A stretch of DNA of 64,000 bases from Burkholderiales bacterium (GTDB lineage Bacteria; Pseudomonadota; Gammaproteobacteria; Burkholderiales; Casimicrobiaceae), in NCBI GenBank assembly GCA_020853025.1, contig JADYZP010000040.1, positions 1-64,000 of the forward strand, given 5' to 3'. Made by a program: the position numbers and the translations under genes. The first letter of the stretch is position 1, and each line of letters starts with the position of its first letter. The notes below the pieces were generated by a model. The model was not told where the DNA came from. It searched no databases and saw only the letters and a program-made list of their open reading frames with translations. Of this stretch, positions 6,975-23,491 are shown piece after piece.

Positions 6975-8921
6975 ATGAGTCCGACACCTCATCGCAAGAA
7001 ACCGGTCAATGCCGTTGTGACGCGTACGCCGCCTCGACCTGGAAGGCGAAAGCAACGCCTGCGGCGAGACACGCCGCAAATCGATTCGGGCGATGCCGCG
7101 AATCTACCGCCCGCGCGCGCAACCGGGAAGTCCGACGACAAGCAGGCGGTCACGGCTTTCCCGTATATGGGGTTGCCGCCGATCGCTCGGCTGGCGGAGC
7201 AGCATCGGCCCGGCGAGCTCGACCGTGCCCTGCACATTCGACTTGCGCGCCTGACGCAAGGCTTGTCACCGGCGGCGATTTCAGGCGCGTACATGGATTG
7301 GTTGCGCCATCTTGCGCTTTCACCCGACAAGCAGCAGGAATTGTGGTCGAAGGCAGTGCAAAAATCGGTGCGCATCGGACTGCATGCACTGCAAAGCGCG
7401 ACGAGTTATCGCTGCGACCCGTGCATCGAACCTCTTCCCCAGGACAAACGCTTCGCGGCGCCCGAGTGGCAGCAGTGGCCATTCAACCTGATCTACCAGT
7501 CATTCCTGCTCAACCAGCAGTGGTGGCACGGCGCCACTACCGGCGTCTCCGGCGTCACCCGGCATCACGAAGAGGTCACGACGTTCTATACGCGGCAGCT
7601 CTTGGACATGTTCTCACCGTCGAATTTCATTTTCGCGAATCCGGAAGTGCTTGCCGAAACTGCCAAGGAAGGCGGTGCCAATCTGCTACGCGGATGGCAG
7701 AAGTGGATCGCGGATATGGTGCAGTTCAACTCGAACGAGCCTCCGGTGGGGACGGAAAATTTCCGCCCGGGCCACGAGGTGGCGATCACCCCCGGCAAGG
7801 TGGTGTTCCGCAACCACTTGATCGAGCTGATTCAGTATCGTCCACAGACCGAGACCGTATTTGCCGAACCGGTGTTGATCGTGCCGTCGTGGATCATGAA
7901 GTACTACATCCTCGACCTGTCGCCAGTGAATTCGCTGGTCAGGTACCTCGTTGAGCATGGGCATACGGTCTTTATCATGTCGTGGAAGAATCCCGACGCG
8001 AACGATCGCGATCTCGGCATGGACGACTACTTGCAGGCCGGTGTCATGGCGGCGATCGGTGCGGTGAGCAGCATCGCGTCGGATCGGAAAATCCAGGCGC
8101 TCGGCTATTGCCTTGGCGGCACGTTGCTGGCCATTGCCGCGGCGTTCATGGCACGTTCCCGGGACGACCGACTGCAGTCGATGTCGCTGCTCGCCTCATT
8201 GCTCGACTTCACGGAACCGGGCGAGCTTGGATTGTTCATCGACGAGAGCCAGCTGGCGTTTCTCGACAACATCATGTCGAAGAAGGGATATCTGGATGGC
8301 AAACAGATGGCGGGAGCATTCGCTCTGCTCAATTCGCGCGACCTCGTCTGGTCACGGATCGTGCGCGACTACCTCATGGGCGGCAGCCAACGCGTGAGCG
8401 ATCTCGCTGCCTGGAACGCCGACGCCACGCGCATGCCTCGTCGGCAGCATAGCGAGTACCTGCACAGCCTGTATCTGCGAAACGACCTGGCCGAGGGGCG
8501 CTACGTCGTCGGCGACAAGCCCGTCGCACTTACCGACATCCGCATCCCGATTTTTTCGCTGGGCACACAGCGCGACACGGTTTCACCGTGGCGCTCGGTC
8601 TACAAGGTCAACCTACTCACCGATACGGACGTGACATTCTGCCTCACCAGCGGCGGCCACAATGTGGGTGTCGTCAATCCGCCGGGACCGGGGGTGCCGC
8701 GCAGCTACCAATTGGCCACACGCGCGGCTGACGGCCGCTACGTTGACCCCGATACCTGGCAAGCCACGGCGCCGGCGCATCAGGGCTCGTGGTGGCCTGC
8801 GCTGGAGGGCTGGTTGCGCGATCATGCAAGCAAGCGCGTCGCATCGCCGGCGATCGGCAACAAGGCGCGAGGCTACCCGGTGCTCGACGATGCGCCCGGA
8901 ACCTACGTGCTTACCCCGTGA
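6975..8921 (+). CDS. phaC: Class I-type polyhydroxyalkanoate synthase
   Basis: The 648 residues polymerise hydroxyacyl-CoA into PHA at the granule surface. The catalytic Cys is C379 in LGYCLGG, the lipase-box variant of PHA synthases. The Asp is in FSLGTQRDTVSPW and the His is in SGGHNVGVVNPPG. The segment TPGKVVFRNHLIELIQY is the family's conserved N-terminal block. It is longer than typical class I enzymes (about 590) owing to a basic, Arg/Lys-rich N-terminal extension of roughly 60 residues. No phaA, phaB, phasin or PhaR gene lies beside it, so precursor supply is encoded elsewhere. It converges with a universal stress protein gene. Confidence 0.92.
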   Translation: MSPTPHRKKPVNAVVTRTPPRPGRRKQRLRRDTPQIDSGDAANLPPARATGKSDDKQAVTAFPYMGLPPIARLAEQHRPGELDRALHIRLARLTQGLSPAAISGAYMDWLRHLALSPDKQQELWSKAVQKSVRIGLHALQSATSYRCDPCIEPLPQDKRFAAPEWQQWPFNLIYQSFLLNQQWWHGATTGVSGVTRHHEEVTTFYTRQLLDMFSPSNFIFANPEVLAETAKEGGANLLRGWQKWIADMVQFNSNEPPVGTENFRPGHEVAITPGKVVFRNHLIELIQYRPQTETVFAEPVLIVPSWIMKYYILDLSPVNSLVRYLVEHGHTVFIMSWKNPDANDRDLGMDDYLQAGVMAAIGAVSSIASDRKIQALGYCLGGTLLAIAAAFMARSRDDRLQSMSLLASLLDFTEPGELGLFIDESQLAFLDNIMSKKGYLDGKQMAGAFALLNSRDLVWSRIVRDYLMGGSQRVSDLAAWNADATRMPRRQHSEYLHSLYLRNDLAEGRYVVGDKPVALTDIRIPIFSLGTQRDTVSPWRSVYKVNLLTDTDVTFCLTSGGHNVGVVNPPGPGVPRSYQLATRAADGRYVDPDTWQATAPAHQGSWWPALEGWLRDHASKRVASPAIGNKARGYPVLDDAPGTYVLTP

Positions 8922-8960: not shown

Positions 8961-9860
8961 TCACGCATCGTCGCGGCGCGTGGAGACGAGCACGTCGGCA
9001 GAGGACTCCGCAATCACCCTGTTTGTCGTGCTTCCGAGTACAAACTCCTCCAAGGCGTTGCGCCCGTGCTTGCCGATGACGATCAGGTCGCAGTCGTGCT
9101 CCTGCTCCTGCGCAACGATCTGTATCGAGGGATCCGTGCCGGCGGGCGTCAGTGCGGCCCAGCGATCGTTTGCAAGACCGGCGCGTGCGGCGAGATCACC
9201 CATCCTGCGCATGGCTTCGGTGCGAGTCGCGGCGCGAATCTCATCGATGACACTGGCGTCGATTCCGGTGAAAGGTAACCGGTCTTCGAATGGCAACTCG
9301 ACGGCGTGCATCAGCACGAAATCGGCGCCAGGGGCGACCACAGCGGCAGTTTCGACCGACGGACCGCTCCAGCCGGAGAAATCGACGGGAACGAGCACGC
9401 TTCGATAGGACTCGCGTGGTGCGCGTCTTACCATTAGCACGGGCCGCGACAGTTTTTTCACCAGGCGTTCGGCGGTGGAGCCCAGGAGGCGGTTACGCAG
9501 GAATCCCGCGCCCAGCGTTCCGGTGATGACGAGGTCGGCAGCCCGCTCATCGGCGATGCGAGCGATTTCTTCGACCGCATGTCCGGTGATGGTCAGGGCG
9601 TCGACGCTGATCTGGTAGCGAGCGCCCAGCTCGGATGCGAGTTTCTGCAGACGTTCGCGGCTATCATCGAGTATCGATTGCGTGGCACCTCCGTTGGTGT
9701 CCAGCCAGCGGCGCAACTCGTCGAGCGCGCTACCGCTGATCGCGTGCACCAGCGTCAGCGATGCCGACGAAGCCCGGGCGAGCATCGCGGCGCGATCGGC
9801 TGCGCGCCGCGCCGGAGCCGACAAATCGCTTGCGACGACGAGCGAGCGAAGTTCAATCAT
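8961..9860 (-). CDS. Tandem-domain universal stress protein
   Basis: The 299 residues comprise two UspA domains (about 1-148 and 150-299). Both keep the ATP-binding signature: ITGTLGAGFLRNRLLGST in the first and VIGKHGRNALEEFVLGST in the second. This suggests an ATP-binding UspE/UspF-like protein rather than a UspA-type non-binder. The ATG at 9860 has GAGGAC upstream. Such proteins are induced by starvation and low oxygen. The neighbours, PhaC and the N-ATPase, suit that setting, but no shared promoter is seen. Confidence 0.88.
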   Translation of the reverse strand: MIELRSLVVASDLSAPARRAADRAAMLARASSASLTLVHAISGSALDELRRWLDTNGGATQSILDDSRERLQKLASELGARYQISVDALTITGHAVEEIARIADERAADLVITGTLGAGFLRNRLLGSTAERLVKKLSRPVLMVRRAPRESYRSVLVPVDFSGWSGPSVETAAVVAPGADFVLMHAVELPFEDRLPFTGIDASVIDEIRAATRTEAMRRMGDLAARAGLANDRWAALTPAGTDPSIQIVAQEQEHDCDLIVIGKHGRNALEEFVLGSTTNRVIAESSADVLVSTRRDDA

Positions 9861-9954: not shown

Positions 9955-11827
<1,873 letters not shown>

Positions 11828-11831
<4 letters not shown>

Positions 11832-12115
11832 CCGAACGCAACGACCAGGCGGGCGATGAAATCGATCGCCGCGCGCGGCGGATGAAGGCGGCGCGCGACA
11901 ATCCCGGCGCAAGCCCGCTGCGCGGGATCGGTACGTTCGGGATGATCGGATGGTCGGTTGCGGTCCCTGCCGTTGGCGGGGCGTTCCTGGGCGCCTGGCT
12001 CGATCGAACGGTACCGCAGGCGTTTTCGTGGACGCTTGCGCTGATCGTCGCGGGCGTGCTGCTGGGAGGGATCATCGCCTGGCGCTGGCTGCGCGAGGAA
12101 GGAGGCGACCTGTGA
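11828..12115 (+). CDS. atpQ: AtpQ/AtpI-like membrane protein of the N-ATPase
   Basis: The 95 residues have a charged N-terminus (about 45) followed by two transmembrane helices (FGMIGWSVAVPAVGGAFLGAWL and SWTLALIVAGVLLGGIIAW). The family is annotated AtpQ, or AtpI/gene1-like, and is found only in N-ATPase operons. It probably helps assemble the c-ring. It overlaps both neighbours by four bases, so translation of the operon is tightly coupled. Confidence 0.85.
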
Positions 12116-12408
12116 TCGGTTTTGACTGGAGCGGATTGATGATCGGGACGCTCGCCGGCGGCGCACTGGGTGCGCTGTTCTTCGCCGGGCTGGCCTGGGG
12201 CATGAAGGTCGCGCTGCGGCGGCCGAACCCCGTCGCGATCCTGCTGCCGAGCGCCGCCGTGCGCATCGCTGCGCTCCTCGCCGGCGGGTGGGTCATCGCC
12301 GCATGGCTGGGTGTTGCGGGTGCGCTCGGTTTCGCGCTGGCCTTCCTCGGATTGCGCTTCATCCTCGTTGCCCGCATTCGCGCGAGGATGGCGAACGAGG
12401 CCGGGTGA
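12112..12408 (+). CDS. atpR: AtpR membrane protein of the N-ATPase
   Basis: The 98 residues form three hydrophobic helices with conserved charged positions (AWGMKVALRRPNPVAILLPSAAVR). Its place between atpQ and atpB is diagnostic of N-ATPases. A role in assembly, or contact with c-subunit carboxylates, has been suggested for the family. The start taken is the GTG at 12112, which overlaps the atpQ stop (GTGA). An ATG at 12139 is a poorer choice because it removes part of helix 1. Confidence 0.82.
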   Translation: MIGFDWSGLMIGTLAGGALGALFFAGLAWGMKVALRRPNPVAILLPSAAVRIAALLAGGWVIAAWLGVAGALGFALAFLGLRFILVARIRARMANEAG

Positions 12409-13106
12409 TGGATCTCACCCCCGACAGTATTATCGTATTCACCGTCGGCGGCGTGCGCGTGAACGCGACGATCGTCTATACCTGGCTCGTCATGGCGGTG
12501 TTGACCGGCGGCGCCTGGCTCATGACCCGCAACCTGCGCCCGGATGTGCCGCCCAACCGTTGGCGCACGCTGCTCGAAGTCATCGTCCAGGCCATCGAAG
12601 GCCAGATCGCCGAAATCGCCGAAGGACCTGCGCGACATGTACTGTATTTCTCCGGCACACTGTTCCTGTTCATCCTGACCTCGAACGTGCTGTCGGTCGT
12701 GCCCGGCTTTCGCGCACCCACGGGTTCGCTTTCCACCACCGCAGGTCTCGCACTTGCGGTGCTGGTGGCTGTGCCGATCTTCGGCATCGGCAGCCGGGGC
12801 CTGACGGGGTATCTCAGAACCTATGTCCAGCCGTCCTGGATCATGCTGCCTTTCAATATCATCGGCGAGATTTCGCGCGGACTGTCGCTCGCCATTCGCC
12901 TCTACGGCAACATCATGAGCGGCGCGGTCATCGCCGCGATCCTGTTGGGCGTTGCCCCGCTCTTCTTTCCCGTTCTGATGAGCATGCTGAGCCTGCTCAC
13001 GGGCGTGATCCAGGCCTACATCTTCGCGGTCCTCGCGACGGTCTACATCGCGTCGGCCACGGCCGACCCGACTCGAACCGCAACCAAAGGAGAAAAATCG
13101 TCATGA
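12408..13106 (+). CDS. atpB: N-ATPase subunit a
   Basis: The 232 residues are the membrane stator subunit forming the ion half-channels. Five to six helices are visible. The essential Arg lies in EISRGLSLAIRLYGNIMSG, followed by the LLTGVIQAYIFAVLATVYI helix typical of the a-subunit C-terminus. The ATG overlaps the atpR stop by one base, and its own TGA overlaps the atpE ATG. The upstream extension of this frame is not used. Confidence 0.9.
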   Translation: MDLTPDSIIVFTVGGVRVNATIVYTWLVMAVLTGGAWLMTRNLRPDVPPNRWRTLLEVIVQAIEGQIAEIAEGPARHVLYFSGTLFLFILTSNVLSVVPGFRAPTGSLSTTAGLALAVLVAVPIFGIGSRGLTGYLRTYVQPSWIMLPFNIIGEISRGLSLAIRLYGNIMSGAVIAAILLGVAPLFFPVLMSMLSLLTGVIQAYIFAVLATVYIASATADPTRTATKGEKSS

Positions 13107-13402
13107 CTGATCTCGCCCTCATCGGCGCCGTGTCGATCTTCACCGCCGGGTTGACGGTTGCCATCGGCTCGATCGCCCCGGCACTTGGCGAAGGCCGCGC
13201 CGCGGCCAGCGCGCTGGCGGCGATTGCGCAGCAGCCCGACGCCGGTCCCACGCTGTCGCGCACGCTTTTCGTCAGCCTCGCGATGATCGAATCGACAGCG
13301 ATCTACTGTTTCGTGGTCGCGATGATCCTGGTTTTCGCCAATCCGTTCTGGAACGCGGCAGTGGAGGCGGCGCAGACGGCGGCAAAGAGCGCGGGCGGCT
13401 AG
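13103..13402 (+). CDS. atpE: N-ATPase c subunit (rotor ring)
   Basis: This 99-residue hairpin of two helices lacks a cleaved signal. The ion-carrying carboxylate is E63 in MIESTAIYCF. E30 in helix 1 (ALGEGRAA) sits where the Ilyobacter Na+ rotor has Q32. S64 and Y68 correspond to S66 and Y70 of that Na+ site. The ring therefore keeps much of the Na+ signature but with a second carboxylate, the N-ATPase pattern. The start is the ATG at 13103, overlapping the atpB stop. Whether Na+ or H+ is carried cannot be settled from sequence. Confidence 0.93.
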   Translation: MTDLALIGAVSIFTAGLTVAIGSIAPALGEGRAAASALAAIAQQPDAGPTLSRTLFVSLAMIESTAIYCFVVAMILVFANPFWNAAVEAAQTAAKSAGG

Positions 13403-13405
13403 GAA

Positions 13406-14176
13406 ATGTCCATCGACTGGGTCACCGTCGCCGCACAGATCGGCAACTTCCTGATTCTGGTGTGGCTGCTGAAGCGCTTTCTCTACCGACCGATCCTCGA
13501 TGGCATCGACGCGCGCGAGGCCGAAATCACCGCGCGCATGGGCGAGGCGCAACGTATCGGCGATGCGGCCGAGGCCGAGAAGGCGGCGTTTGCAAAGCGG
13601 CTTGCCGTGCTCGAATCCGAGCGATCCGATGTGCTCGATACAGGTCGCGCGGAAGCGCAGGACTTGCGCGAGAAAATGATCCGCGAAACCCGCGCGCAAC
13701 TTGCCGCAGAGCGCGAGGTGTTTGCGCGCGATCGGAAGGCCCAGGCCGAACGTTACGCGACTGCCTTGGAGAAATCCGGCGCCGAGGCATTGCTTGCGCT
13801 AACCCGCAGGGCGCTCATGGAACTGGCTGACGAGACCTTCGAAGAGCGGCTGGTGATCCATGCGGGCCGACAGATCGATGCGTCCCGACAGGAGCTGCTC
13901 GAGGCTGCCTCCGTTGCCAAAGAGATCGTTGTCACCACGCGGGACAGCCTTTCGGATGCGTTGCGTTCGACGCTGACCGATCAGATCGCGGAGCGGCTGC
14001 CCGGAGTCGCGCTGCGTTTTGCGAGCGATCCTGCACAATCTCCGGGCCTGGTCCTGCGCATCGGCGGAGTTCGGGTCGGCTGGACCGTCGACACTTATGT
14101 CGAGGAGCTTGCGGCGATGGTGGAAGACCAGATCACCGAGAAGAGTCACAAGAAAGCGGTGAACGATGTCCGCTGA
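13406..14176 (+). CDS. atpF: N-ATPase b subunit with delta-like C-terminal extension
   Basis: At 256 residues it is about 100 longer than a standard b subunit. It has one N-terminal membrane helix ([19 protein letters not shown]), a long charged coiled coil (about 35-135), then a globular segment (about 150-245, with [16 protein letters not shown] and [14 protein letters not shown]). That segment resembles the C-terminal part of delta. The operon has no separate atpH, so the extension probably supplies the stator cap. It ends 11 bases inside atpA. Confidence 0.88.
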
Positions 14177-15692
14177 CGACCGGAGTCGCGGCCCCGACCC
14201 TGTAGCAGTTATCGAGATGCTGGCCCAGGCCCCGGCGCCTCGCCCCCGGATCGAGGAGGTCGGCCGCGTCACGCAGGTGGGCGGCGGCATCGCCACCGTC
14301 ACCGGGCTGGCGCGCGCGGTATCCGACGAGATGCTGGAATTCGCCGGCGGCGTGCGCGGCCTGGTGCTCGACCTCGAGCCTGGGCGACTGGGTGTGGCGC
14401 TCCTGGGACCATCCGAGGCAGTACGGATGGGCGAGGACGTGCGCCGCACTCGCAGGGTCGTCAGCGTTCCGGTGGGCGAGGCGCTGCTTGGCCGCGTCAT
14501 CGATGCGCTCGGGCGCCCGCTCGATGGCGGCGCGCCGATGAGTGCGCCGGAGCGACCGGTCGAGCAGGAAGCGCCGCCGATCCTGGACCGCGCCCCGGTT
14601 GCACGCCCCCTCGCCACCGGCATCAAGGTCGTGGATGCGGCCGTGCCGATCGGCCTCGGCCAGCGCCAGCTGATCATCGGCGACCGCCAGACCGGCAAGA
14701 CGTCGATCGCGGTCGACACCATGCTGAACCAGAAGGAAACCGATATCGTCTGCATCTATTGCGCCATTGGCCAGCGTGGCGATTCGGTGGCCAAGGTGAT
14801 CGGCGCACTGAAGAGCGGCGGCATGGCGAAGCGCAGCGTGGTGATCACGGCCGGCGACGAGGACGCGCCGGGACTTTCGTTCATCACGCCGTATGCCGCC
14901 ATGTCGATCGCGGAGAGTTTTTCCGATCATGGCCGCGACGTTCTGCTGGTGCTGGACGACATGACCCATCACGCGCGTGCGTTTCGGGGGCTGTCGCTGC
15001 TCCTGCGCCGCCCGCCGGGCCGCGAGGCGTATCCCGGCGATATCTTCTATGTCCATGCCCGGCTGCTGGAGCGCGCGGGCCAATTCGCGGCGCACGCGGG
15101 AGGCGGGTCGATCACCGCGCTACCGGTCGTCGAAACGCAGGCCGAAAATCTGTCGGCGTATATCCCGACCAACCTGATTTCGATCACCGATGGACAGATT
15201 TACCTGTCACCGCGACTGGTGCGTCGCAACCAGTTCCCGGCCGTCGATCTGGGCGTGTCGGTATCGCGCGTCGGTGCCAAGGCGCAGGCACACGCCTTTC
15301 GGAGTATCGCGGGCAACCTGCGCATGACCCTGTCGCAATTCGAGGAGCTGGAGGACTTCGCACGTTTCGGCACCCGACTGGACGCCCAGACCAGGGCGCG
15401 CCTTGCGCGCGGGGCAGCCGTTCGCGCCGCGCTGCGCCAGCCGGAACGCCAGCCGCTGCCGACCGTCGCCCAGTTAACCCAGCTGATCGCTGCCACCGAC
15501 GGCAGCTTCGACGACATGTCGGAAGCGCAGGTCGCGCATGGCATGGAGCGCATCGTGCGTGCGATCTCCGCGGCGCAGATCCCGGAGATTCACGCGCGCA
15601 TGGCCGACAACGTGGCGCTGTTGGATACGGACCGCGGCATCCTCCTGGACGTCGCGCGGAAGGCGTTGGAAAGCCATGAGCCAGACGCTTGA
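14166..15692 (+). CDS. atpA: N-ATPase alpha subunit
   Basis: The 508 residues are the regulatory nucleotide-binding alpha subunit. The P-loop is GDRQTGKTS (172-180). Other matching blocks are [37 protein letters not shown] and [19 protein letters not shown]. The N-terminal membrane-proximal part is shorter than in housekeeping AtpA. The gene overlaps atpF by 11 bases and atpG by 17, consistent with a coupled operon. Confidence 0.93.
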
Positions 15693-16602
15693 GGTCCTGA
15701 CCCGACGCACTGCCGCGACACGTGATATTCGCGGCATCGTGCACACGATGAAGACCCTGTCGGCGATCAACGCGCATCCGTACGAACAGGCGGCGCAAGC
15801 GATCGGAGGATGGCGCGATACCGTGCTGGACGGATTGCGAGCCTTCGTCAAGGCGCATGGCGCCCTACGCCGTGCCGCAGATGCCGATGCACTGCCGGTG
15901 ATCGTGGCCTTCGGGTCGGACCAGGGGCTTTGCGGCAATTACAACGAAATCGTGGCCGAGGCACTGGCTGCGCATCCGGCGGCGAGCGGCGATAGCCTGA
16001 TCCTCTGCGTCGGCGCACAGATGGAGGACGCGATTCTGGGCGCAGGACTGGACGTTGAGTCAGCGTTGATGGCACCGGCGAGCACAGACGGACTCAACCG
16101 CCTGGCCCGCGAGCTCGTCACGCGGATCGATGCTGCGCGTGCCGCCACCAGGCACGGCGTCGTCGTGACGCTGGCCTTCACCGAGCGCACTGCGCACGGG
16201 CAGCAGAAGCCGGTCATGCGACAGGTACTGCCGCTCGCGCCCGATCTCGTCCTTGAGCTGTCGCACAGCCGGTGGACCTCGCGCAGCCTGCCGCATTTCG
16301 ACATGCCGCGCGACGCCGTTCTTTCCGCGCTATTGCGCAACTATCTTTTTGCAAGCCTGTTTCGCGCCTCCGCCGAAGCCATGGTGACCGAGAACGCCGC
16401 GCGACTCGCACGCATGCAACAGGCCGAGAAAAATATCGACGACCGGCTTGCGGAACTGGCCACTGCGACGCGCACGGCGAGGCAGTCGGCGATCACCGAA
16501 GAGCTGCTGGATATCATCTCGGGCTTCGAGGCACTGAAAACGCGGCGGGTCCGAAAGGGTGATGCATTGTCAGCCGCCTCGCAACCCCCGATCGTGCGCT
16601 GA
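15676..16602 (+). CDS. atpG: N-ATPase gamma subunit
   Basis: The 308 residues form the central rotor shaft. The N-terminal helix ([27 protein letters not shown]) and C-terminal helix ([19 protein letters not shown]...[15 protein letters not shown]) form the coiled coil. The middle Rossmann-like domain carries [17 protein letters not shown]. The ATG at 15676 lies inside the atpA end. It is the last gene of the operon. The next gene converges from the other strand only 14 bases away, with no clear terminator hairpin. Confidence 0.9.
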
Positions 16603-16616
16603 CGCAGGCGGCTCGA

Positions 16617-17006
16617 TCAAGGGCGTGTGAAAGGCGCGCGGGTTGTCTCGCGGATCTGCTGGCAGTGAAGGCAGCGCTTTGCGGTCGGGTAGGCGGTCAG
16701 ACGTGCGTACGGGATCGGTGTTCCGCAATCGATGCACGTGCCATAGGTACCGGCTGCGAGGCGCGCTTGGGCCGCGATGATGTCCTGCAGCTCGGCGGCG
16801 TCGCGCGCTACTTCCGCATTGGCGATGTCGGTCAGCAGCGTGGCGACCGATTCGTCGCCCGCATCCGACGTGCCGGACAGGAGCTCTTCATAACCCTCGG
16901 TGCGCATGCGCGCAAGTCCCGAGCGAATTTCGTCGCGCAGCGGTTGCTTGCGCTGGCGCAACATCGTTGCGAGATGGTCGCGCTCGCTGGTCGTCAATGC
17001 ATCCAT
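16617..17006 (-). CDS. DksA/TraR-family zinc-finger protein
   Basis: The 129 residues have a long antiparallel coiled coil (about 5-82). Its tip reads SDAGDES, with D48 and D51 in the DxxD arrangement DksA uses to reach the RNA polymerase active site. A four-cysteine zinc finger follows (C91, C94, C112, C115). It is shorter than E. coli DksA and is probably a paralogue tuned to stress. The start is the ATG at 17006, because the upstream in-frame stretch is unlike the family. It is the last of four minus-strand genes directed at the translation or transcription machinery. Confidence 0.88.
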   Translation of the reverse strand: MDALTTSERDHLATMLRQRKQPLRDEIRSGLARMRTEGYEELLSGTSDAGDESVATLLTDIANAEVARDAAELQDIIAAQARLAAGTYGTCIDCGTPIPYARLTAYPTAKRCLHCQQIRETTRAPFTRP

Positions 17007-17140
17007 TTTTTTCCAATCGAGAGCTGGGTCGTATTCAAAATGGCCGACGCACGTCGCCAGGTAGGCGTTATTCGACGCGTCGGTAGTCGAACTCGCCGTC
17101 ACGAAGCGGCCCAAAGGACGAGTCGGAGCGCCGCATTGCG

Positions 17141-17569
17141 TCAATCGCCTGGGTGAGGTCTGGCTCTAGTCGCTGCCTTTTTGGGTTTCATGTGCCGGCG
17201 CCGCACACTGCCGCGGACGGCTCGCTCGGTGCCGGCGAGCGCACCATCGATCGCGGGTTTGAGCGATGCCGCCCGGCTTTCAAAGATCACGCTCGGAAGA
17301 CCGCTCAAGACCACCTTGATGCGGCAGACCTTGTCGACGCCTCCGCGAGGGCCATTGGCATCCGACACCCGGACGCTGACGCGTTCGATTGACGTCGCAT
17401 ATTTCCCGAGCTTCGCGCCCAAGCCCTTCCGGATGCTGGCGCGCTGTTCCGGGTCGAGATCGACGCCGAAGACGCGGATGTTTGCCGGGACCTGCGGTGC
17501 ATCGGTGCGTCCTGCTGTCCGCTTCAACGCCTTGGGCAGGCGATCGGCAAAGGATATTCGCTTAGTCAT
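17141..17569 (-). CDS. HPF/RaiA-like ribosome-binding protein
   Basis: The 142 residues show the ribosome-hibernation fold in the middle: IRVFGVDLDPEQRASIRKGL, then YATSIERVSVRVSDANGPRGGVDK, CRIKVVLSGLPSVIFES and LKPAIDGALAGTERAV. The C-terminus is a very basic tail (RRRHMKPKKAATRARP) suited to rRNA contact. It lacks the long C-terminal dimerisation domain of long HPF. AGGAAGG precedes the ATG at 17569. It probably binds the 30S decoding region. Its neighbours on the same strand are DksA-like and baeRF-like genes. Confidence 0.8.
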   Translation of the reverse strand: MTKRISFADRLPKALKRTAGRTDAPQVPANIRVFGVDLDPEQRASIRKGLGAKLGKYATSIERVSVRVSDANGPRGGVDKVCRIKVVLSGLPSVIFESRAASLKPAIDGALAGTERAVRGSVRRRHMKPKKAATRARPHPGD

Positions 17570-17720
17570 GATTCCTTCCTGGGTGCGCTGAATCTGCGCA
17601 AATGCGCCTAATGTGGCGTTTTGGCGAACGAATGCGCTGTCCGCCGTGACCTGCCAAGCCGGACAATTATAGTCGTCTGCGCGCAATGGTCCCGCTAACC
17701 GCCACGATCGCGGCAGATCG

Positions 17721-18890
17721 TCAAAACCGGCAGGTTGCTGCAATGCCCGTTTGCGTCGGCATGCGCGCAGCCGGCACGATGACCACTTCGCCTCCGGTCT
17801 TCATGCCAAGCTCGCCGATGTCGTCGAGCAAGTCGTCGACATCCGGTTCGTTCAAATCCGCGCGCGTGATGGCGCCTGTTCGGGTATCGATGCGGCCGGG
17901 AATCTGGCGCTCGGCTTCGATCAGCAACGTCGCCACGCGACCGTCGGCGACGGCGCGGGCGACCAGAACGAGGTCGTCTTCGGCGAGGTGACGTGCGCGT
18001 GCCGCATGGAAGGCATCGGTCAGGCGGCCCAGGCGCTGCAGATACCCGGGCTCGATCGCGCGCCAGGCGCGCTTTCGCAATTCATCGAGCGACAGGTCGT
18101 CCGGATTGACGTCGATCGTGGCATCGGCCAATGACGGGTTCTGACTGAGCTTGCGAAACGCGTGATGGTGCTCGGGCAGCGCCGCCAGCAGCAGTGGCAT
18201 GTCTGAACCGGAGTGATGCGTGATGACCGCATGGTCGACGTCACGGAAGAAGCGCTCGGTGTCGTTGTCGAGTGCGTCCTGCCGGACATCGGTGCCGTGA
18301 CGGGTAGTGCCTCTCGACACGGACGCAGGACCGTAGACACGGTTGGTACGCTCCGGCCCGCCGGGCCGGTCGGCGACGGTATCGGCGACCATCTGCGGCG
18401 CATTCGGGGCCAGAGCGACCTCGGCCAGCGCATCGCGGTTGCCTTCGAACAACCTTGCCGTGTGCCGGCTCAAACCGAGAATCCGATAGCGATCAGCGGA
18501 CTGGAGGACGCGCAGAAGCGGCTTGGTATGGAAGCTGTCGGCGACCACCACCATTTCCGTCACCGGTCGCTGGAGCCGGTAGACTCGGAACAAGTCATCC
18601 GCACCCAGCACAGCGAGGCCGTCCAAGGTGTGATTCCAGAACTCGTGATCTTCGGCCAGCGCGCGAAACGGCGCGAGCAGCGGCTGGACATCGCGTGTGC
18701 GGTGGCGTTGCCGCAACGACGTCTCCATCGTCTTCAACAGATTGCGGAAGCGGATCGGGTCCTGCGCGTTGTCCGGATGCTGGCGATGCGTCGGCTGGTA
18801 GAGCGACAGGCACGGAGGCTCGCGCTCGCTCAGCAGCAGGCCGGGATAATCGTTCGACAGCGTGTCAATCGCCTGCGTCTTGTTGTTCAT
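17721..18890 (-). CDS. baeRF-family protein (bacterial eRF1-like)
   Basis: The 389 residues belong to the bacterial archaeo-eukaryotic release-factor superfamily. An N-terminal part (LSEREPPCLSLYQPTHRQHP) resembles baeRF3-like proteins. A central RNase H-like domain follows (about 130-280, with HHSGSDMPLLLAALPEHH), then an L7Ae-like C-terminal domain (about 290-389, with VARAVADGRVATLLIEAERQIPG). eRF1's GGQ loop is not visible, so peptide release is doubtful. Members are thought to act on stalled or hibernating ribosomes. GGAGAAAA precedes the ATG at 18890. It is followed by the HPF-like gene. Confidence 0.8.
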   Translation of the reverse strand: MNNKTQAIDTLSNDYPGLLLSEREPPCLSLYQPTHRQHPDNAQDPIRFRNLLKTMETSLRQRHRTRDVQPLLAPFRALAEDHEFWNHTLDGLAVLGADDLFRVYRLQRPVTEMVVVADSFHTKPLLRVLQSADRYRILGLSRHTARLFEGNRDALAEVALAPNAPQMVADTVADRPGGPERTNRVYGPASVSRGTTRHGTDVRQDALDNDTERFFRDVDHAVITHHSGSDMPLLLAALPEHHHAFRKLSQNPSLADATIDVNPDDLSLDELRKRAWRAIEPGYLQRLGRLTDAFHAARARHLAEDDLVLVARAVADGRVATLLIEAERQIPGRIDTRTGAITRADLNEPDVDDLLDDIGELGMKTGGEVVIVPAARMPTQTGIAATCRF

Positions 18891-19096
18891 TGTTTTCTCC
18901 TCGACCGACTAATGCGCCAGGTGCACGTTCGGCCACTGTCGACGGCGGTTGGATGTCGGGTGGGACGCCGGATAGCGTAGACGTCGTGTGCGGAGGCCGC
19001 GTATTCCGATCAAACGGATCGCACTCGGCCGGCTTGGAGGCGGCGAAGGACGACGTACGCCGGAGGATACCCGATACGGTCGCGGCACGCCCGGCA

Positions 19097-19705
19097 CTAT
19101 GCTGCCTCCGGACCATCATGGTCAATTCGCACGTAACGCGTCAAGCGCGTGCTCAGCGCGACGCTGCCCGAGGTCGCAACATCGAGTTCGGCCCCACAGC
19201 CCAAAAGTCGCGCAAGGGGTGCCTCGGCACGCACCAGGAAGCCCGACACGCTGTGGTCGATTTCAAGTATGCGGCCCCGACGACTCTCGACCTCGTGCCG
19301 TACGAGATCGAGGTGGGGGACGGGCCCCCAGAGTCTGATCTCCATGTATGGTTCGAGTACCTGGGCTCCGTAGACATAGCGTACGGAGGGCACATCGGCG
19401 CTCAGCGTGGCTCCAAAGCGTTCGCACAGTGCGGCCACCGCGAGTTGCAGGGCGTTTTCGGTGCGGGCGAGCACGCGCAGTCCGTCGGTGGCGGCGACAT
19501 ATTGGATGTCCTCCGTTGGAGCCCGTTGAAGCTGCCACAACTCCTGCTTTAGCCGACTACGCGTCGCGGCGTCCTTGCCGCGCACCATTTGTTCGATGGG
19601 AAAGTCCGGGTGCATCAACGTTGCGCCGTGCACAACCTGTTCCGGCGAGTGTTTTCCCTCAAGGACGCGAAGATTCACATTGACCTCCAGCAAATGGAAA
19701 TTCAC
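19097..19705 (-). CDS. EF-G-like protein with only domains III and V
   Basis: About 202 residues if started at the GTG at 19705, which is preceded by AGGGG. Residues of about 75-115 (DGLRVLARTENALQLAVAAL, then CERFGATLSADVPSVRYVY) resemble EF-G domain III. Directly after come VLEPYMEIRLWGPVPHL, SRRGRILEI and RAEAPLARLLGCGAEL, the beta-alpha-beta fold and signature of domain V. No GTPase domain and no domain IV are present. It cannot act as a translocase. It may bind at the factor-binding site or mimic EF-G. It precedes the baeRF, HPF and DksA-like genes on the same strand. An in-frame upstream extension to 19843 is not family-like. Confidence 0.65.
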   Translation of the reverse strand: MNFHLLEVNVNLRVLEGKHSPEQVVHGATLMHPDFPIEQMVRGKDAATRSRLKQELWQLQRAPTEDIQYVAATDGLRVLARTENALQLAVAALCERFGATLSADVPSVRYVYGAQVLEPYMEIRLWGPVPHLDLVRHEVESRRGRILEIDHSVSGFLVRAEAPLARLLGCGAELDVATSGSVALSTRLTRYVRIDHDGPEAA

Positions 19706-19998
19706 GATGGCCCCTGTACAAGACGGCCGCCGATGTACGCCCAGCGAGCCCAAACCCGTCGGGCTCCAACGTGACACAACCGCCCAAAGATCAGATGATG
19801 GGGGTACGAAGTGCGTTGCAAAAGCCCCGGCCTCGAACAACACTGTTTCTCGAAACGATCAATGCCGCTTCCCAAGTCTCCTTACCGGGGTTGTCAAGCA
19901 TTCCCGACAGCCGCCGGTTTCCAATCCGGGTACCGTAAATGGGCGCCGATCGCGATCCCAGGTGAATGGTTGCGCAGAAATCGAAAGGGGAGGTCACG

Positions 19999-20346
19999 AT
20001 GGAACCGAGTATGTACCCCGATGTGTCCAAGGAGCTCGCGCAAAAGCGCAGGGAGCTCGCACCGGAAATCTACGCTGCGTTCCGGACCTTTAGCCAACGC
20101 GTCTTTGCCGATGGCGCACTGCCACCAAAAACCAAGCAACTCATCGCAGTCGCAGTAGCGCACGTGACGCAGTGTCCATATTGCATCCGTGGCCACACCG
20201 AGCTGGCATCGAAGAATGGTGCAACCGAACAGGAGATCATGGAAGCGATTTGGGTTGCGGCGGAGATGCGCGCCGGCGCTGCCTACGCGCATTCGATCCT
20301 CGCCATCGATGCAATGGGTCAAAGCGGGGCAAAGCCAGGCGCGTGA
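19999..20346 (+). CDS. Carboxymuconolactone decarboxylase / AhpD-like protein
   Basis: The 115 residues form the all-helical CMD/AhpD fold. The redox motif CPYCIRGH carries the CxxC plus a downstream His used by AhpD-type alkylhydroperoxidases. The segment GATEQEIMEAIWVAAEMRAGAAYAH is the family's second conserved helix. It is likely a small oligomeric disulfide reductase or peroxidase. The start is the ATG at 19999, because GGGGAGG lies just upstream. An earlier in-frame ATG at 19966 lacks one. Confidence 0.85.
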   Translation: MEPSMYPDVSKELAQKRRELAPEIYAAFRTFSQRVFADGALPPKTKQLIAVAVAHVTQCPYCIRGHTELASKNGATEQEIMEAIWVAAEMRAGAAYAHSILAIDAMGQSGAKPGA

Positions 20347-21804: not shown

Positions 21805-22039
21805 TCGGCCGTTGTCGTGAAAGAGACCGGAACGAGCGGGCCTTGCCGAGCCGCTGCGGTTGGCCGAATCAAGGCTTCCCTACAACGATTGTCAAGCCTC
21901 CCTGGTAGGCGACCGCTCATCGAAGGTCTAGGCTGCTTCGCTTGGGTCATGGTCTGCCGGCGGGGGTTTGCGGGAGGCTCGTCTTCGGCCAAGTCGAATG
22001 CAAAGCGGCGGTGTTCATCAAGTCCATCAATCAGACGCC

Positions 22040-22450
22040 ATGATTCGAGTGCTCCTCGCCGACGATCACGCGGTCGTGCGTGACGGCCTGCGCGCGCTCC
22101 TGGAGGCGCAGGCGGATATCGAAATAGTGGGGGAGGCCGCGAACGGACGCGAAGCCGTCCGCCAGGTGCATGACCTCAACCCAGACGTGCTGGTCATGGA
22201 CATCGCGATGCCGGAATTGAACGGGATCGAGGCGACGCAGCAACTGCACGACGCGCTTCCGTCGACGCAGGTGCTGATTCTGTCGATGCATTCGACCACC
22301 GAGCATATCTTTCGCGCGCTGCAGGCGGGAGCACGAGGCTATTTGCTGAAGGATTCCGCCGGCAGCGAGGTTGTCGACGCCATTCGTGTGGTGCATACGG
22401 GCCGGCGCTACCTCAGCCACAAGATTGCAGCGGGCGTCATCGACGACTAC
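22040..22450 (+). pseudogene. Truncated NarL/LuxR-type response regulator (receiver only)
   Basis: Residues 1-137 are a full receiver domain with the acidic pocket (LLADDH), phosphoacceptor D54 (VMDIAMPEL) and the KDSAG lysine. The coding sequence departs from its relative exactly after VIDDY, before the linker and HTH. It is the damaged copy of the regulator at 33881: 411 bases align without gaps with about 45 mismatches by eye. The frame then runs on through 38 non-conserved residues into the folP-like gene without a stop. It is most likely a relic, although D54 is intact, so a fused or stand-alone receiver cannot be excluded. Confidence 0.75.
22040..22450 (+). repeat. Dispersed direct repeat, copy 1 (partner 33881-34291)
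   Basis: These 411 bases are about 89% identical to 33881-34291 in the same orientation, 11.8 kb apart. Mismatches cluster in the first half. Roughly the last 240 bases differ at only about 13 positions, suggesting gene conversion or a recent exchange. Recombination between the copies could delete or duplicate the sdh-acnA segment. Confidence 0.85.
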
Positions 22451-22564
22451 AGTTGCGCATTCACAGCCGCTTCCGGTCATCCAGTCCATCCGGACCCCGT
22501 TTTCCACCAAAGGCAGCGCCGGTATTCCACCGGATGGCGCAAACGAGAAGATGCAGGAGCAGGC

Positions 22565-23491
22565 ATGAAACTGACCATGACAAGCGCAGGTTCAATCGTG
22601 AGTGGTTTCCGTTTGCCTGAGATAATCCACCCGCGGCGGCGTCTAGGAACGCGCGTCTTCGACTTTTCTCGCCAGGTTGCTGTAATGGCGATCGTCAACC
22701 GGACGCCAGACTCGTTCTACGACAAGGGTCGAACCTTCGGCCTGGACGAGGCCATCGCGTCCGCCAATACCGCCATCGCCGACGGGGCCGATTGGGTGGA
22801 TATTGGCGGAGTACCGTTTGCGCCCGGTCCCGAGGTAACCGTCACCGAGGAAATGGACAGAGTCGTCCCCGTTATCGAAGCGCTCTCCGGCCATGATGAA
22901 ATCGTCATCTCGGTCGATACGTTCCGCCCGGAGGTCGCTCGTCGCTGTATCGGGGCCGGCGCCCATGTGATCAACGACACGAGCGGCTTGCGCGACGTGG
23001 CGATGGCTCGGGTCGTTGCCGACAGCGCTGCCAGTCTCGTGATCACCCACAGTCTTTCCCCGCCGCGCCGCGCCTATCCTCGCCCTCGCTATGTCGATGT
23101 CGTATCGGAAGTGGTCGAGTTTCTCCGGAACAAGGCGGAGGTCGCCGGTGGTTGCGGGCTTCCGGTAGAACGCATCATCATCGATCCGGGGCTCGATCTG
23201 AACAAAAACACCTGCCATTCGCTCGAATTGATACGCCGTCTCGACGAGATCGCCGCGATTGGGCTTCCGCTGCTGGTTGCCGTCTCCAACAAGGACTTCA
23301 TCGGCGAAACGCTCGACCGGGAACAAGGACATCGACTTGAAGGCAGCCTCGCGGCCGCGGTGGCGTGCATCGTCCAGGGTGCGCGGATCGTGCGCATGCA
23401 CGACGTCGCCGCGGCCGTAGCCGTCGTACGCCTCACCGAGGCGATATTAGGCTTCCGCAAACCGGCCTTCGTCAGGCACAACGCGGAGTAG
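22565..23491 (+). CDS. FolP2-type dihydropteroate synthase homologue
   Basis: This 308-residue TIM barrel is closest to the actinobacterial FolP2 pattern: MAIVNRTPDSFYDKGRTF (41-58), DIGGVPFAPGPEV (79-91), ISVDT, INDTSG, IIDPGLDLNKNT (205-216), VAVSNKDFIGETL (238-250) and RMHDV. True DHPS has GGESTRPG and GxSRK where this has GGVPFAPG and VSNK, so an Arg and a Ser-Arg pair of the pABA pocket are missing. FolP2 proteins studied in mycobacteria lack DHPS activity. The ATG at 22565 has AGGAG five bases upstream, so it can be translated independently of the receiver relic in the same frame. A reductase gene follows after four bases. Confidence 0.8.
   Translation: MKLTMTSAGSIVSGFRLPEIIHPRRRLGTRVFDFSRQVAVMAIVNRTPDSFYDKGRTFGLDEAIASANTAIADGADWVDIGGVPFAPGPEVTVTEEMDRVVPVIEALSGHDEIVISVDTFRPEVARRCIGAGAHVINDTSGLRDVAMARVVADSAASLVITHSLSPPRRAYPRPRYVDVVSEVVEFLRNKAEVAGGCGLPVERIIIDPGLDLNKNTCHSLELIRRLDEIAAIGLPLLVAVSNKDFIGETLDREQGHRLEGSLAAAVACIVQGARIVRMHDVAAAVAVVRLTEAILGFRKPAFVRHNAE

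Follow-up and report, generated by a model that had tools for sequence, protein, structure and literature searches.

A G-domain-less relative of elongation factor G beside Balon and HPF homologues in a Burkholderiales bacterium: a candidate ribosome hibernation locus

The 64,000-nucleotide stretch of DNA analysed here (the window: positions 1 to 64,000 of contig JADYZP010000040.1, assembly GCA_020853025.1, from a Burkholderiales bacterium of the Casimicrobiaceae) carries on its minus strand, in the region 16617..19705, four successive genes for factors directed at the ribosome or at RNA polymerase. In order of transcription they encode a 193-aa protein consisting of domains III and V of elongation factor G (EF-G), here called EFG-mini (19097..19678); a 389-aa homologue of the hibernation factor Balon (baeRF family 3; 17721..18890); a divergent, short HPF/RaiA protein with an S30AE domain (17141..17569); and a DksA/TraR-like protein with a C4 zinc finger (16617..17006). 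We propose, with a probability of about 0.5, that this is an energy-stress silencing locus built around the known Balon-HPF pair, in which EFG-mini would cap the ribosome's factor site without GTP. The proposal builds on the genes and their families, on the architecture of EFG-mini, on gene neighbourhoods that recur elsewhere, and on co-occurrence in one genome sample; a hibernation role for EFG-mini is suggested by its neighbours and its fold. More tentatively, EFG-mini may found a new family of ribosome hibernation factors: a translocase without its GTPase, capping idle ribosomes at their factor-binding centre and made together with Rnk or DksA-like proteins, so that transcription and translation would be parked from one locus.

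That the array holds four minus-strand genes of these families, as the original prediction had it, is confirmed by Pfam matches for all four. The same prediction was right that the first gene product derives from EF-G and has no G domain; domains II and IV are missing too. EFG-mini matches the Pfam family EFG_C at 38.8 bits (cut-off 27.9; frame 19097-19843), the sole Pfam family matched by any of the 21 members of our alignment, window copy included, none of which shows a GTP-binding G domain. When the family profile was searched against the PDB, residues 105-186 aligned to residues 615-696 of EF-G (6not), which is domain V, and residues 17-102 to residues 402-491, which is domain III, a stretch not significant alone; domain IV is skipped, profile residue 102 falling on EF-G residue 491 and residue 105 on 615. 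By profile comparison, domain V resembles that of EF-G with a probability of 97.7% (E 2.4e-12). Domain III is supported by structure: an AlphaFold2 model built from five sequences (predicted local distance difference test 82.5, predicted TM-score 0.74, residues 1-21 below 50) was matched by Foldseek to EF-G, LepA and BipA over both domains. Relative to the query, the TM-score is about 0.7 for the best rows, and root-mean-square deviations are lowest for LepA (2.8 A) and BipA (2.9-3.2 A). LepA and BipA also lack EF-G domain IV, which fits this contiguous structural match. EFG-mini thus has domains III and V in the fold and order of EF-G, LepA/EF4 and BipA/TypA; unlike them, it lacks a G domain, domain II and any family C-terminal domain, in a length of about 193 aa. 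Seven NCBIfam families are matched, all of them translational GTPases, and none models the short protein itself.

With three of the five EF-G domains missing, EFG-mini might be a decaying EF-G fragment, but this is hardly credible given that a single architecture is common to all 21 members, that 17 of the 21 end in Ala-Ala (GPEAA in the window copy), and that nonsynonymous divergence (dN) is below synonymous divergence (dS) in seven of seven pairs by the NG86 method; several of these pairs are near saturation and YN00 values were obtained for two of the seven, so the direction alone is used. An EF-G pseudogene was rejected on the conservation together with dN < dS. The Ala-Ala ending may be a degradation signal. 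A further explanation, that EFG-mini is a rescue or protection factor clearing a blocking ligand or a stalled factor from the A site as ribosomal protection proteins do, draws on a weak match of the family profile to TetQ (27.9 bits) and on a nearby gene for the RNA ligase RtcB in one genome (G344); it seems very improbable for a protein that lacks both the G domain with which to power turnover and the domain IV with which to reach the decoding site.

EFG-mini is a coherent and rare family without an NCBIfam model of its own, and it is the new part of the finding. Besides the window copy, we found 20 loci in 19 genomes, and in a tree the window copy clusters with five copies from its own genus (support 99/99). 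It is present in 6 of 22 genomes of that genus, in at least 3 of 300 genomes of an order sample (G000, which is the window's genome, G058 and G134; the remaining matches listed there cover domain V only, nearly all in frames of EF-G size), in 5 of 369 of a class sample, in 2 of 398 of a phylum sample, in 2 of 114 genomes around G344 (a third match being EF-G) and in 8 of 118 around G603 (four more being EF-G). These samples overlap and each includes its centre genome; the analysis as a whole covered 1,857 genome scans, some genomes being scanned more than once, and in the larger samples the best 8-29 first-look candidates were scored per genome search, so that misses are possible. Two queries of 72,556 plasmid records gave no EFG-mini match. 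The window's genome comes from an uncultured bacterium, and the nearest named records that contain EFG-mini are metagenome-assembled genomes labelled Burkholderiales (three) and Proteobacteria (one). An EF-G-derived protein without a G domain is absent among the literature matches listed, of which titles and abstract starts were covered and which are no proof of absence, and the available part of a survey of translational GTPases (PMC4342817) names no such EF-G. As an observation apart, a 107-aa open frame in another genome of the genus (G014:C5:407715-407963) matches the domain V part of EFG-mini only, and is either a fragment of EF-G or a second protein of the EFG_C type, shorter than EFG-mini.

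The second and third genes form the known half of the array. The Balon homologue scores 144.5 bits against Pfam baeRF_family3 (17721-18890) and matches the Balon chain of PDB 8rd8 (E 1.4e-21) over residues 23-388 of 389, near full length. Its best NCBIfam model is NF052287, 'AOC03_06830 family ribosome hibernation factor', at 200.3 bits, below the 330-bit equivalog cut-off, as are the matches in all 14 Balon genomes of the class sample; by sequence it is a Balon-type homologue and not an assigned member of the equivalog. The HPF/RaiA protein passes the Pfam Ribosomal_S30AE cut-off (27.6 bits against 23.7; 17141-17743) and matches the ribosomal subunit interface protein of PDB 7m4z (E 3.3e-4), with no match in NCBIfam. 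Balon genes most often adjoin RaiA, typically in stress operons (PMC10901736). Among 21 other Balon loci (eight from relatives, 13 from the class sample), an HPF gene lies within 0.5 kb in nine (four of the eight and five of the 13), a count from which divergent HPFs may escape; a DksA-like gene is near Balon in two (L049, L052) and an Rnk-type gene in two (L173, L174). The Balon-HPF half of the finding is therefore an ordinary pairing, already published, and half of the supposedly new grouping is known. Two observations on Balon loci may be added: Rnk, a small membrane protein and Balon follow each other in identical order and strand in G449 (L173:8077-10877) and G344 (L174:10649-13122), and in G041 (L053:8527-9694) the Balon reading frame falls into two that overlap, through either a sequencing error or a break in the gene.

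The fourth gene product, encoded by the third gene after EFG-mini, is to judge from its family matches DksA/TraR-like and not DksA itself. Pfam zf-dskA_traR is matched at 52.8 bits (cut-off 24.9; 16617-17144), the four cysteines of a C4 zinc finger are present in the translation, and E. coli DksA (1tjl) is matched over residues 9-121 (E 4e-4); the DksA equivalog TIGR02420 is matched at 49.4 bits, its cut-off of 115.5 not being reached. The acidic coiled-coil tip of DksA carries the motif DxxD; by eye the tip here reads DAGDE, and the HMMER alignment to 1tjl places it a few residues away from where DksA has its tip. Close homologues (50-68% identity) occur in four genomes of the genus (G003, G009, G018, G010), and an HPF-domain protein is found in the region of two of the four (L052, L182). 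The L182 region (G009) shows a 342-aa protein joining two CBS stretches to an S30AE/HPF domain directly before the DksA-like gene (L182:1872-3358), which itself is followed by a gene for the polyhydroxyalkanoate (PHA) synthase PhaC. The architecture of this CBS-HPF protein resembles archaeal HibA (PMC13324472), which has four CBS domains where the L182 protein has two CBS stretches.

What accompanies EFG-mini elsewhere was scanned at the 20 loci outside the window (regions of 4-20 kb, some ended by contig ends), with identical protein queries against 20 control regions of 18 kb at arbitrary, hand-picked coordinates in 13 genomes that are the same or related; these counts include related loci, which are not independent. 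An Rnk/GreA-type gene lies within 2.5 kb of EFG-mini at 12 of the 20 loci, against 0 of the 20 controls (one-sided Fisher p 2e-5), and a 13th locus has one about 8 kb off. At eight loci this gene immediately precedes EFG-mini on the same strand, and at five of these the two genes overlap; the remaining four of the 12 are on the opposite strand, 0.5-1.9 kb away. A GreA/GreB C-terminal domain is present in all eight of the neighbours scanned (from the 12), and for seven of these eight the best NCBIfam model is 'nucleoside diphosphate kinase regulator' (Rnk), whose cut-off is passed by one. By lineage, Rnk stands within 2.5 kb at five of the five other loci of the window's genus, in G058, G661, G344 and G349, and at three of nine loci of the G603 family; the G134 and G1031 loci have none at that distance. 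A universal stress protein (Usp) gene is present in the scanned region at 5 of 20 EFG-mini loci, against 0 of 20 controls (p 0.024). EFG-mini thus stands beside Rnk and Usp genes more often than chance would place it there. The control regions held no Rnk, Usp, DksA-like, Balon or HPF gene (0 of 20); a DUF488 gene occurred in one of them. In the window's own genome there are four weaker Rnk matches elsewhere and none at the array locus.

Two further observations concern these neighbours. On contig C4 of the window's genome, three Rnk-type genes and a Usp match lie within 7 kb (L184:5965-12577). A small conserved cysteine-containing protein adjoins EFG-mini in three genomes (L033:4075-4644, L035:10232-10687, L036:13161-13493); the L036 copy, the one scanned, has no Pfam match.

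Rnk is the commonest neighbour of EFG-mini among the families queried, and with its frequent position directly before EFG-mini on the same strand this could mean that EFG-mini is no hibernation factor and instead works with the secondary-channel factors of RNA polymerase, as a partner of Rnk or DksA that links transcription to the ribosome. We regard this as unlikely, since the fold of EFG-mini is that of ribosome-binding domains and 8 of the 20 loci have no Rnk within 2.5 kb. Association of Rnk with an EF-G-derived protein is not described among the literature matches listed.

The strongest support for a joint theme, as the original prediction had proposed, comes from G344, a genome of a different order, where EFG-mini and Balon lie on one contig about 20 kb apart. 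A 27-kb stretch of this genome (L110:4273-13980 and L174:1829-13122) carries RtcB, a DksA-like gene, EFG-mini with Rnk immediately ahead of it, PhaC, two Usp genes, a second Rnk gene, a gene for a small membrane protein, and Balon; the families recur in a gene order other than that of the window, and so does the theme of stress factors directed at ribosome and polymerase. Rnk is also close upstream of Balon both here and in G449. A DUF308 protein, a family also labelled HdeD-type, is encoded near Balon in G344. In the class sample (n=369), EFG-mini (E 1e-20) is found in five genomes, Balon (E 1e-25) in 14, and both in four (G000, G344, G603 and G661); the hypergeometric tail is 6e-6 and becomes 1.4e-4 when the window's genome is left out, both values being uncorrected for phylogeny.

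The proposed silencing would work as follows. EF-G domains III and V overlap the region used by the A-site ligand and by EF-Tu, so EFG-mini and Balon-EF-Tu are expected as alternatives. An Ala-Ala ending is a ClpXP motif. Under energy limitation, HPF would obstruct the small subunit's path for mRNA and tRNA, and Balon would fill the A site together with EF-Tu, as published for Psychrobacter. EFG-mini keeps the two EF-G domains between the GTPase part and the tRNA-like arm and has neither GTPase nor domain IV, and for this reason we propose that it would dock on idle ribosomes, GTP-free, where the sarcin-ricin loop and the stalk base lie, and would cover there the site held by EF-G, eEF2 or EF-Tu in other hibernating ribosomes, probably as an alternative to Balon-EF-Tu at the factor site and not as its simultaneous partner. 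In parallel, the DksA-like protein in the window, and Rnk at most other EFG-mini loci, would act on RNA polymerase. On recovery, the Ala-Ala ending could, speculatively, permit removal of EFG-mini by ClpXP. Several published elements lend themselves to this scheme: HPF and Balon, the latter with EF-Tu, occupy idle ribosomes (PMC10901736); eEF2 and EF-Tu bind the sarcin-ricin loop and stalk of hibernating ribosomes (PMC11102965); the title of PDB entry 9pyc has EF-G and RaiA simultaneously bound to the E. coli ribosome; and a review states that E. coli Rnk binds RNA polymerase.

A number of results weigh against this scheme. Neither Balon nor HPF is found at any of the 20 other EFG-mini loci within the fetched regions, a DksA-like gene is found at one, and at five there is neither Rnk within 2.5 kb nor Usp. 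Rnk-type genes are common as such (17 of 22 genomes of the genus), so the signal is their closeness to EFG-mini and not their presence. PhaC occurs in 2 of 20 control regions and in 1 of 20 other EFG-mini regions, and PhaC near the window array is consequently no evidence. Within the genus (n=22), co-occurrence is not notable (EFG-mini 6, Balon 7, both 3), and EFG-mini had no match in 10 of the class sample's 14 Balon genomes. In EFG-mini itself, domain III is weak by sequence alone (pairwise E 0.006, probability 6%, the placement being right), and the conserved RS-T-GRA stretch of EF-G domain V is altered, so that ribosome contacts may differ.

These results bear on the idea that the array is a loose stress neighbourhood, in which the known Balon-HPF pair lies by chance beside EFG-mini and a DksA-like gene, each with its own promoter and with no joint function. 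The gene order of the window recurs at none of the 20 other EFG-mini loci, two overlapping promoter-like matches (19096..19144, minus strand, 9/12 consensus positions each) stand ahead of Balon, the intergenic gaps are 134-206 bases wide, and EFG-mini and Balon give no co-occurrence signal within the genus; on the other side are the recurrence of the families within 27 kb in G344, the co-occurrence in the class sample, and control regions free of Rnk, Usp, DksA-like, Balon and HPF genes. We consider such a chance neighbourhood possible and somewhat doubtful. The promoter-like matches are weak, consensus matches only, and among four in 16560-20100 on both strands (shuffled mean 0.5); the same interval contains no intrinsic terminator, and 16500-20100 no structured RNA (zero Rfam matches at gathering scores). 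The gaps, predicted earlier at 130-210 bases, measure 206, 151 and 134 from the EFG-mini end onwards when likely starts are used.

The view of the array as one four-gene module is thus partly supported. A fixed four-gene system or operon was rejected on the 0 of 20 for Balon and HPF within the fetched regions; the exact order is found at no other locus examined, and the conserved co-location that had been put forward as a check does not hold for the array. Of the wider setting, the closeness of PhaC says little, and PhaC is unsupported as part of the system.

For the silencing locus that we favour, the nearest known systems are the Balon/RaiA loci of PMC10901736, which likewise have a Balon homologue adjoining HPF/RaiA in a stress neighbourhood. 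RtcB (near EFG-mini) and the DUF308 protein (near Balon) in G344 are of kinds named there as Balon neighbours. The window differs in adding the G-domain-less EF-G protein and the DksA-like gene; in the available text of that paper 'DksA', 'elongation factor G' and 'EF-G' each have 0 occurrences, and Balon with RaiA and DksA is not described among the literature matches listed. With eEF2 on dormant eukaryotic ribosomes (PMC11102965) and EF-G with RaiA (9pyc) the likeness is that a translocase sits in the factor site while the ribosome is idle; in those cases translation lends a full GTPase, whereas EFG-mini would be a dedicated factor. The secondary-channel factors Rnk, GreA and DksA (PMC4598747, where the function of Rnk is given as unknown) are represented by the Rnk-type genes beside EFG-mini and by the DksA/TraR zinc finger in the window. 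The finding would be a variant of ribosome hibernation loci, with a fair chance of a new hibernation factor in EFG-mini. If true, EFG-mini would be a dedicated, GTP-free EF-G derivative, a counterpart to eEF2 on the dormant ribosomes of eukaryotes, and would offer a way in to the function of Rnk, which binds the polymerase.

The gene starts given above are our choice, from ribosome-binding sites and homologues. EFG-mini probably starts at GTG 19678, preceded by GGAGGT, within a longer open reading frame (ORF) that reaches 19843; the likely starts of the others are ATG 18890 (Balon homologue), ATG 17569 (HPF/RaiA, ORF 17141-17743) and ATG 17006 (DksA/TraR-like, ORF opening at 17144). Control by FNR/ANR was considered and rejected: no TTGATNNNNATCAA site with at most one mismatch occurs in the whole window.

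The array is flanked on one side by an alternate F1Fo ATPase (N-ATPase-like) operon on the plus strand (9964..16602) and on the other by a carboxymuconolactone-decarboxylase-like gene, also on the plus strand (19966). In the operon, the best NCBIfam matches of the beta, alpha, gamma and b genes are 'alternate F1F0 ATPase' models, all four below cut-offs, and ATP-synt_A and epsilon domains are present. About 7-10 kb from the array lie the tandem Usp gene (8961..9860, minus strand; two Pfam Usp stretches) and PhaC (6975..8921, plus strand; PhaC_N 194 bits), the latter probably incidental. Elsewhere in the window, a single frame (21968-23491) contains both a response-regulator receiver domain and a pterin-binding (DHPS-type) domain; it may have arisen from a truncated regulator that runs on into a separate gene.

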